Origin: Solirubrobacterales bacterium
GTDB taxonomy: Bacteria; Actinomycetota; Thermoleophilia; Solirubrobacterales; 70-9
Direction: 5' to 3'
Assembly (NCBI GenBank): GCA_021155855.1
Contig: JAJNAZ010000001.1
Span: 62,001-126,000, forward strand
Length of the DNA stretch: 64,000 bases
Shown here one piece after another: positions 55,880 through 58,746 of the stretch. Under the pieces are notes generated by a model, which worked only from the letters and a program-made list of their open reading frames with translations, did not search any database and was not told where the DNA came from. The position numbers were made by a program, and so were the translations under genes. Within the stretch, counting starts at the first letter, position 1. The number at the start of each line of letters is the position of its first letter.

Positions 55880-56461
55880 CTACTGCGCCGGCGCCGGAGG
55901 CGGCTGAGTGAACGAGACCGAGACCGGCTCGCGCTCGGCGGCGTCCTCGACCTCGAAGAACTCGCGCGCCGTGAAGCCGCCCGTCCCGGCGACGACCGAG
56001 TTGGGGAAGATCTGGATCTTGGTGTTGTAGGCCTGCACGTTCGAGTTGTAGATCCGGCGCGAGGCCTGGATCTCGTCCTCGAGCTCGGAGAGGTTGCGCG
56101 AGAGCTGCTGGAAGTTCTCGGTCGCGCGCAGCTCCGGATATTGCTCGGCGACCACCCGCAGGCCCCCGAGCGCCTGGCTCAGCAGCCCCTCTGCCTGACT
56201 CGCCTCGGCCGGGCCCTGCGCCTGCATCGCGGCGGCGCGAGCCTGGGTCACCTTCTCGAAGGTCTCGCGCTCGTGCTGGGCGTAGCCCTTCACGGTCTCG
56301 ACCAGGTTCGGCACCAGGTCGTGGCGGCGCTTGAGCTGCACGTCGATCCCCGACCAGGACTCGTCGACCCGGTTGCGCGAGCCGATGATCGAGTTCCGGA
56401 CCAGGATGAAGATCAGCCCGAGCAGGATGACTACTCCGATGATGATCAGGACTATCGTCAT
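55880..56461 (-). CDS. LemA family protein
   Basis: 193 residues. An N-terminal helix (VLIIIGVVILLGLIFILVRN) anchors a long coiled-coil helical bundle: NRVDESWSGIDVQLKRRHDL and VPNLVETVKGYAQHERETFE are the family signature, and RRIYNSNVQAYNTKIQIFPN the second. The role in bacteria is poorly known. The disordered tail has a short Pro-rich end. Confidence 0.92.
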   Translation of the reverse strand: MTIVLIIIGVVILLGLIFILVRNSIIGSRNRVDESWSGIDVQLKRRHDLVPNLVETVKGYAQHERETFEKVTQARAAAMQAQGPAEASQAEGLLSQALGGLRVVAEQYPELRATENFQQLSRNLSELEDEIQASRRIYNSNVQAYNTKIQIFPNSVVAGTGGFTAREFFEVEDAAEREPVSVSFTQPPPAPAQ

Positions 56462-57080: not shown

Positions 57081-57698
57081 TCAGCCGATCGCCCCCTCGA
57101 GCTTCAGCAGCCACTCCTTCATCTCCGGCCCGCCGCCGTAATTGCCGACCCGACCGCCGGCGAGCAGGACGCGGTGGCAGGGAACGATCAGCGGGATCGG
57201 GTTGTGTCCGAGGGCCGTGCCGGCGGCGCGGTAGGCGCGCGGGTTGCCGGCCCGGTCGGCGATCTCGCCATAGCTGGCGGTGACCCCGAACGGCAGCTTC
57301 GCGGTCTCGCGCAGCACCCTGCTGTAGAAGCCGGGGCGCACCAGGCGCCAGTCGAGCTCCAGATCGAACCGCCGGCGACGGCCCTCGAAGTACTGGTCGA
57401 GCTCGCGCCGCGCATCGTCGAGACGACCGGGCAGCTCCAGGATCCGGGGCGAGACGTCGGTCGCGAGACGCTCGATCGTCTCGTCGAGCCGCTCGTTGGG
57501 AAGCGCGACACGGACCACCCCCCGCCCGGTGGCGGCGACGAGCCCGGTGCCCAGTGGCGATTCGAAGCGCGCGTAGGCAACCTCGGCGAGGTCCTCGCGC
57601 TCGACCCGATCGGTCAGCCTCGCGGCCGCGGCGGCGGCCTGCTCCGCGATCCCCGCGCCCAGCGCCCTCGCGATGTCCTTCGCATCCGCTCGGCTCAT
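57081..57698 (-). CDS. ogt: Methylated-DNA--protein-cysteine methyltransferase (Ogt/MGMT)
   Basis: 205 residues. The C-terminal domain has the active cysteine in PLIVPCHRVLLAGGRVGNYG (PCHRV) and the HTH TASYGEIADRAGNPRAYRAA. It transfers alkyl groups from O6-alkylguanine to itself. The N-terminal 40 residues (MSRADAKDIARALGAGIAEQ onward) precede the usual RNase H-like domain and could hold an additional helical domain. The start overlaps the sigma gene stop (ATGA), so it is co-translated with an ECF sigma factor. Confidence 0.92.
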   Translation of the reverse strand: MSRADAKDIARALGAGIAEQAAAAAARLTDRVEREDLAEVAYARFESPLGTGLVAATGRGVVRVALPNERLDETIERLATDVSPRILELPGRLDDARRELDQYFEGRRRRFDLELDWRLVRPGFYSRVLRETAKLPFGVTASYGEIADRAGNPRAYRAAGTALGHNPIPLIVPCHRVLLAGGRVGNYGGGPEMKEWLLKLEGAIG

Positions 57699-58201
57699 CG
57701 CCTCGTCTCCTCTCGGTCGATCGTCCTGCGTAAGGCCTTGAGCCCGTCGGCCACCCGGCGCCGCGCCGCCGCCTCGCTGGTGTCGAGCGCCGCCGCGATC
57801 TCGCGATAGGGAAGATCGGCCGCGTAGCGGAGCGCGACCGCGGCCCGCTGGCCGTCCGCCAACTCCGATACCGCGTCCCAGACCTCGCGGTCAGGGGTCC
57901 GGTCGCTGACCCCGATCTCGGGCAGCTCGCCGCGGGGCTCGGGCCGCCGGGCTCGCGCCCGGTGATGGTCGATCGCCTTGCGCCGCGCGATCGTCATCAC
58001 CCAGGCACGCGGGTGGCGGCCGTCCATGCGCTCGTAGGCGCCGAGCGCGGCGATGAAGGTCTCCTGGAAGCAGTCGTCGGCGTCGTGCGGGCCGACCATC
58101 GCGCGCAGGAACGCGAGCACCGGCTCGCGGTGCTCATCGAGGAAGCGCTGAAACGGCGCCGGGGGAGGCCGGTGACCTCGGCTTGTGGCGGCGGCGCTCA
58201 C
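57695..58201 (-). CDS. ECF sigma factor
   Basis: 168 residues. Region 2: FQRFLDEHREPVLAFLRAMV, ADDCFQETFIAALGAYERMD, HPRAWVMTIARRKAIDHHRA. Region 4: ELADGQRAAVALRYAADLPY, REIAAALDTSEAAARRRVAD. GTG 58199-58201 is the start. There is no adjacent anti-sigma factor; the coupled downstream gene is ogt. A GGAAC-N17-CGT promoter stands just upstream on the opposite strand. Confidence 0.93.
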   Translation of the reverse strand: MSAAATSRGHRPPPAPFQRFLDEHREPVLAFLRAMVGPHDADDCFQETFIAALGAYERMDGRHPRAWVMTIARRKAIDHHRARARRPEPRGELPEIGVSDRTPDREVWDAVSELADGQRAAVALRYAADLPYREIAAALDTSEAAARRRVADGLKALRRTIDREETRR

Positions 58202-58212
58202 TGCTCGATCAC

Positions 58213-58237
58213 GGAACGCTCCGACGAGCGTATTCGT
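58213..58237 (+). promoter_or_regulatory. ECF-type promoter (GGAAC-N17-CGT)
   Basis: GGAAC at 58213-58217 and CGT at 58235-58237 are 17 nt apart, the classic ECF sigma geometry. It points at the secreted protein gene at 58291 and stands next to the ECF sigma start, fitting sigma-dependent control of this neighbour. Confidence 0.55.
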
Positions 58238-58290
58238 GAGTAGGATCGGCTGCAGGGGGAGGGACGGACACTCGATCGGGAGGTCTCAGC

Positions 58291-58746
58291 ATGCGCAGAA
58301 AGTGGATCGTGGGCGTGGTCACGCTGGCGGCGGCCGCCGGCACCGCGACGATGGCGACGAGCGTCTTCGGCGGCGGCTCGAAGCCGCGCACCGGCGACAA
58401 CGTCGTCGAGGTCAAGATGAAGAGCGCGCCCGACCCCGCCAGCCAGCGGGCGCAGAAGGCGAGGAAGAAGAAGCCGCGGATGGTCTATCTGCAGGGACCT
58501 TCGCAGTTGGTCGACGTCGCCCAGACCGGTCCCTTCATCGACGTACGCCTCTCGTCCTGCCCGGGGAACTCCCGCGTGATCGAGGGCGGGATCGTCGCCG
58601 ATAACGTCGGGGTCTTCGAGCAGGGCTCCTACGTCGAGAGCCGCAAGGCCTACCACGTGTTGATCGGCTTTGCTCCCGGGATCACCCCGGTGAACTTCAA
58701 CCTCAGCTCGCATCTGACCTGCATCAAGGGCGTTAAGGGCGGCTGA
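58291..58746 (+). CDS. Secreted protein of unknown function
   Basis: 151 residues. The N-terminus (WIVGVVTLAAAAGTATMATS) is a signal peptide or lipid-free anchor. A basic linker (RAQKARKKKPR) is followed by a soluble domain with two cysteines (LSSCPGNSR, HLTCIKGVKGG). SD GGGAGG lies about 8 nt upstream. No family recognised. It is probably driven by the ECF-like promoter at 58213. Confidence 0.75.
   Translation: MRRKWIVGVVTLAAAAGTATMATSVFGGGSKPRTGDNVVEVKMKSAPDPASQRAQKARKKKPRMVYLQGPSQLVDVAQTGPFIDVRLSSCPGNSRVIEGGIVADNVGVFEQGSYVESRKAYHVLIGFAPGITPVNFNLSSHLTCIKGVKGG

Follow-up and report, generated by a model that had tools for sequence, protein, structure and literature searches.

An ECF-type sigma factor and the O6-alkylguanine-DNA alkyltransferase gene coupled to it, ogt, are together best explained as a sigma-factor-driven adaptive response to DNA alkylation in which Ogt acts as putative sensor and off-switch. 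As an account of the whole, this explanation is judged somewhat more likely than not. The pair lies on the minus strand of the window, the 64,000-nucleotide stretch of DNA that was analysed.

The sigma factor gene (57695..58201, minus strand) has a GTG start and encodes 168 amino acids. Pfam assigns sigma-70 regions 2 and 4 to the product (PF04542 and PF08281), which has no C-terminal extension and scores 70.1 bits against TIGR02937 (sigma70-ECF), where the cut-off is 42.9. It is an ECF (group IV) sigma factor, that is, a small protein with sigma-70 regions 2 and 4 only. The ogt gene (57081..57698, minus strand) encodes 205 amino acids carrying PF01035 and PF02870. The sigma stop and the ogt start share the bases ATGA (57695..57698, minus strand), an overlap that is read as translational coupling. 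A first-pass annotation of this DNA had described the gene pair, its ATGA overlap and extra residues at the Ogt N-terminus. Both open reading frames, the overlap and the expected Pfam domains were recovered and the N-terminal residues are present; the strand that it had given for a nearby promoter did not hold. Downstream of the pair, beyond an HTH gene, the window carries a LemA gene (55880-56461, minus strand). A LemA gene directly follows sigma-ogt in two relatives (L060, L061), making it a conserved neighbour with no obvious functional link.

The sigma-ogt pairing extends well beyond the window. In a survey of the phylum, the window sigma alone was searched in 296 genomes, which gave 47 places at E <= 1e-25. 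Ogt lies directly downstream of 46 of these 47 close homologues, and the remaining one is at a contig end. When named genomes were scanned separately, using an alignment of the sigma alone, the linked Ogt stood beside the sigma in all 80 loci kept, which cover Streptomyces, Rhodococcus, Nocardia, Gordonia, Arthrobacter, Sinomonas, Tsukamurella, Amycolatopsis, a Mycobacterium and others. The overlap of the two genes is exactly four bases in 129 of 148 pairs. A lack of conserved adjacency had been named beforehand as refuting, and the adjacency that was observed leaves the proposal standing; the two counts rule out an adjacency that is due to chance or merely local. Sigma-ogt was also seen in contigs labelled Chloroflexi, Acidobacteria, Dormibacterota, Rokubacteria, Sporosarcina and Dehalococcoidia (L149, L176, L186, L199, L204, L205), which suggests either transfer beyond Actinomycetota or mis-binned contigs.

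No anti-sigma-like gene adjoins the window sigma and, by neighbour clustering, none recurs within 4 kb of the sigma across the 80 relatives, which bears out the earlier remark that the sigma has no anti-sigma gene beside it. A review (PMC8999054, citing Casas-Pastor 2021) mentions ECF122 as a group that has no anti-sigma factor and is found near 6-O-methylguanine DNA methyltransferases, its mechanism being still uncharacterised. The window sigma resembles this group in both respects, having no anti-sigma and an adjoining 6-O-methylguanine DNA methyltransferase. Correspondingly, the 46 of 47 and 80 of 80 loci with an adjacent ogt agree with the neighbourhood as worded in that review, and the lack of a recurrent anti-sigma gene within 4 kb in the 80 loci agrees with the lack of a cognate anti-sigma factor. 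A literature search for a described sigma-Ogt alkylation system returned the ECF122 remark only; the original ECF122 classification may predict a promoter. On the strength of this record, the sigma-ogt pairing is therefore not new. The first-pass annotation knew of no described system of this layout; the pairing is on record as ECF122, with its mechanism uncharacterised (PMC8999054). The text of the review on ECF122 gives no regulon, promoter or mechanism; the promoter, the operon with ogt2, AlkB, AlkA and Tag, and the extension of the linked Ogt that are described below go beyond it.

A predicted autoregulatory promoter precedes the sigma gene (58213..58240, minus strand), with the -35 element CTCAC at 58236-58240, a 17-base spacer and the -10 element CGTT at 58215-58218. 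The GTG start of the window sigma follows 13 nt past the -10 element, so that its transcript would be nearly leaderless. Across loci the median distance from the -10 element to the start codon is 8 bases, and the transcripts are therefore probably leaderless or nearly so. The motif CTCAC-N17-CG[T/A][T/C] was found upstream of the sigma in 54 of 64 loci, compared with about 0.5 in shuffled sequences. Its spacing is exactly 17 bases, neighbouring spacings giving only 0-2 matches, and its fuller consensus is A[TC]CTCAC[GA][TA][TA]C followed by CGT[TC]TA. Among the named loci, CTCAC-N17-CGT[T/C] stands ahead of the sigma in 59 of 80. Twenty of the other 21 have a second, short ogt (ogt2) directly upstream of the sigma, and the promoter precedes ogt2 in all 20; it thus heads either the sigma or an operon-leading ogt2 in 79 of 80 loci. 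Because promoter and sigma are co-conserved, it can be predicted with high confidence that the window sigma recognises CTCAC-N17-CGT[T/C] and would thus activate, by positive feedback, both its own expression and alkylation repair.

The same DNA read on the opposite strand gives GGAAC-N17-CGT (58213..58237, plus strand), which the first-pass annotation had taken for an ECF promoter serving a secreted protein next door. The string does occur at this position, but it is the reverse complement of the conserved, sigma-facing CTCAC-N17-CGTT (58240 to 58215, minus strand). The sigma-facing motif is present in 113 of 144 loci, whereas the divergent reading is found in five (1.1 expected), and a same-genus relative has GAAACG where the divergent motif of the window stands. 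The gene in question (58291..58746, plus strand) is divergent from sigma-ogt and encodes a secreted-type protein whose family was not recognised. Among the loci examined, the second genome of the genus is the only other one with a homologue at this spot, and nothing was seen that ties the protein to the sigma-ogt system. A divergent ECF promoter for the secreted protein is thus highly improbable, and the earlier reading is best put down to a misread strand.

Further copies of the promoter motif point to a regulon. The motif precedes 32 of 37 second ogt genes, where 0.18 would be expected. Motif scans of the relatives' genomes returned mainly sigma-ogt promoters. Five genomes also gave matches at ogt2 genes, and a further match lay at an oxygenase gene of PF09859, a family to which Pfam ascribes activity on damaged DNA. 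Within the genome of the window itself, matches shortly before a fitting start were found for this sigma, for a second sigma-ogt operon, where the match precedes a remnant of an oxygenase gene, and for alkA (HhH-GPD), where the motif lies 17 nt before the ATG. This genome holds 20 matches in total and the reversed control 16, so that a match carries weight only where it stands before a fitting gene. Only two of 30 relatives have the promoter at alkA, which is therefore a lineage-specific target and was rejected as a core member of the regulon in the order. A perfect CTCAC-N17-CGTTTA was also seen 13 nt before a Ppx/GppA phosphatase gene (L103/L136) in a Mycobacterium-like genome, G133, where it may be due to chance. 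Regulon membership is unproven for the matches at ppx/gppA in G133, at a SigJ-like gene in G289 and inside genes.

The second sigma-ogt pair of the window's genome lies at G000:C55. The Oxygenase-NA gene before it (L057:4463-4699) is a 78-aa remnant with its middle missing (...GQQRPTGIIFHDAK), which reflects a genuine deletion or else an error of assembly. In genome G001 (L059), a 243-aa copy of Oxygenase-NA is followed by sigma, ogt and ogt2, and a second ECF sigma with a DUF6596 C-terminal extension (L059:303-1688) is encoded upstream of this operon.

The operons themselves are rich in repair genes. Clustering of the neighbour genes in the 80 named loci identified, as co-directional neighbours, an AlkB-type oxygenase in 20, Oxygenase-NA in 17, AlkA in 16, Tag in 15 and Ada_Zn_binding in 9; a second ogt was counted 37 times, once on the other strand. 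At least one extra alkylation-repair gene (ogt2, AlkB-type, Oxygenase-NA, AlkA, Tag or Ada_Zn) lies near the pair in 50 of the 80 loci. On comparative sequence evidence, this is the arrangement of an adaptive-response operon, with repair genes predicted to share the promoter of their regulator, as is the case for the 32 second ogt genes and for alkA in the window's genome. Because the conserved promoter precedes ogt2 and alkA and the operons are rich in repair genes, the sigma is very probably the regulator of an Ada-like response to alkylation damage, for which inducibility is predicted. Comparison of promoters and of operon content thus lends strong support to one part of the first-pass interpretation, that the sigma drives an alkylation response; another part, the promoter for a secreted protein, falls away.

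The system resembles that of Ada (E. coli Ada, AdaA/AdaB) in having an alkylation-repair regulon of AGT, AlkA and AlkB types and, probably, an alkyl-acceptor protein as sensor. It differs in its regulator, which is an ECF sigma rather than an AraC-type activator. It is not an Ada regulon proper, as it does not include an Ada-type activator (Ada_Zn_binding with AraC HTH); a search of the 96% complete genome of the window (G000) gave no PF02805 (Ada_Zn_binding) domain. A strict mutual exclusion of sigma-ogt and Ada was considered and not seen, some genomes having both. A full-length Ada domain occurs in about 6 of 46 sigma-ogt genomes versus 62 of 250 others, a comparison for which no significance is claimed. 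Stand-alone Ada_Zn_binding proteins of ~85-112 aa, without the Ada HTH, are encoded in some sigma-ogt operons (9 of 80; L165:5868-6206, L063:5719-5976 and others), and are possibly methylphosphotriester acceptors, or sensors without their activator.

In the window Ogt, the AGT residues C174, H175, R157, Y143, N166 and E201 are present and conserved in the alignment. The PCHR active site (residues 173-176, with Cys174; 57171..57182, minus strand) is ~99% invariant across 141 sequences. The AF2 model (mean pLDDT 95.3) has a canonical AGT fold with one extra N-terminal helix. Its best structural match in Foldseek is M. tuberculosis OGT (4bhb, 4wx9; E 1.5e-14), a protein of 165 aa that shares the AGT fold but is without the N-terminal helix. 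As judged from alignment and model, the window protein is an AGT/Ogt enzyme, with the PCHR nucleophile, Arg finger, Tyr, Asn hinge, catalytic Glu and predicted AGT fold all in place.

The extra residues at the N-terminus that had been noted earlier number about 35 before the AGT domain, and residues 3-35 (57594..57692, minus strand) are predicted to form a single helix. This extension is characteristic of sigma-linked Ogts, in which its median length is 37 residues, compared with 10 in second Ogts, and it is variable in length and sequence. Most sigma-less members of the clade that lie away from contig ends are without it. One such Ogt (L069, G196:C1) retains the extension; its gene adjoins a second ogt and a Tag gene, and its sigma has probably been lost recently. 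We know of no recognised anti-sigma domain that the extension resembles. A further family-specific element in the alignment is the stretch SPRILELP (SPRxLxxP; residues 83-90; 57429..57452, minus strand), of which SPR is at least 95% conserved in linked Ogts and mostly gapped in second Ogts. A role for Ogt as a zinc anti-sigma (ZAS) was rejected, as the protein has a single Cys, which is that of PCHR, and the HxxxCxxC motif is absent.

The sigma and its linked Ogt also diverge together. Across the 43 loci that have all three of sigma, linked Ogt and ogt2, the distances among sigmas track those of the linked Ogt (r 0.71, partial 0.65) and not those of ogt2 (r 0.38, partial 0.03); the difference has a bootstrap interval of 0.06 to 0.44. 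This co-divergence could alternatively arise from more frequent exchange of ogt2. In a sigma-Ogt covariation analysis, too shallow at Neff 21 to be informative, a few of the top pairs touch the N-terminal helix, a poorly aligning part.

In the favoured mechanism, which is compatible with all of the data, the coupled Ogt is both off-switch and sensor; with the contact itself putative, its chances are put at about even. Ogt would be made together with the sigma, and unmodified Ogt would hold it through the extra N-terminal helix, perhaps also through the SPR stretch. Transfer of an alkyl group to the active-site Cys of AGT proteins is irreversible and destabilises them. Such transfer to Cys174 would release the sigma, which would then turn on its own operon and the repair genes; once the damage is gone, fresh Ogt would re-capture the sigma. 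Ogt is proposed as the regulator because no anti-sigma is conserved, the four-base overlap prevails, PCHR is nearly invariant, the extension is specific to linked Ogts and sigma and Ogt co-diverge. The linked Ogt is, moreover, the sole invariant companion of the sigma, the other repair genes not being invariant. In its fullest form, the proposal would make a suicide repair enzyme a cytoplasmic anti-sigma, each alkyl group removed inactivating one inhibitor and freeing one sigma, so that damage is counted stoichiometrically; this form is more tentative, and the balance tips slightly against it.

Ogt might instead be a target only. The sigma would still drive the repair operon, with its activity set by its own level or turnover, by an unlinked anti-sigma or by another damage signal at the promoter, and translational coupling would merely keep sigma and Ogt expression in step. 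Positive autoregulation by itself can yield a switch, further repair genes in the same operon need not regulate, and the AF2 model of Ogt has no known anti-sigma fold in Foldseek. Left unexplained, however, are why the partner that is never missing is the linked Ogt (80/80, versus at most 37/80 for ogt2, AlkB and AlkA), why its extension is specific to linked Ogts and why sigma and Ogt co-diverge. This reading is a serious contender, if a distinctly less likely one. Ogt could also act by Ada-like co-activation, in which alkylated rather than free Ogt would bind the sigma and activate or stabilise it. E. coli Ada, which is activated by methyl transfer, is a precedent, and the conservation evidence serves this model as well as it does the release of sigma from free Ogt. 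However, alkylated AGT proteins are generally destabilised and ECF sigmas usually need no activator, and co-activation is considered unlikely.

ECF41 provides a partial parallel, as it has no anti-sigma partner and a promoter before the first gene of an operon of sigma and enzyme (PMC3426412). The -35 element of its promoter, TGTCACA-N16-CGTC (PMC3426412), has TCAC in common with that of sigma-ogt. ECF41 differs in its partner enzymes and in the regulatory domain that is fused to its C-terminus (PMC3426412).

ECF122 is named in the review as an uncharacterised case of ECF sigma control without an anti-sigma factor (PMC8999054). The promoter and regulon give this group a probable function, in alkylation damage, and a concrete, falsifiable mechanism of control. 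The significance is considered high because the review text states no function for ECF122 and its mechanism has become open to direct testing. Among the named carriers are Streptomyces, Rhodococcus, Nocardia, Arthrobacter, Tsukamurella and a Mycobacterium species. The findings suggest a possible route to an adaptive response in bacteria without Ada, that of the window included. If Ogt does control the sigma, the system would represent a novel mode of ECF sigma factor control and a second design of the adaptive response, one that does not depend on Ada.
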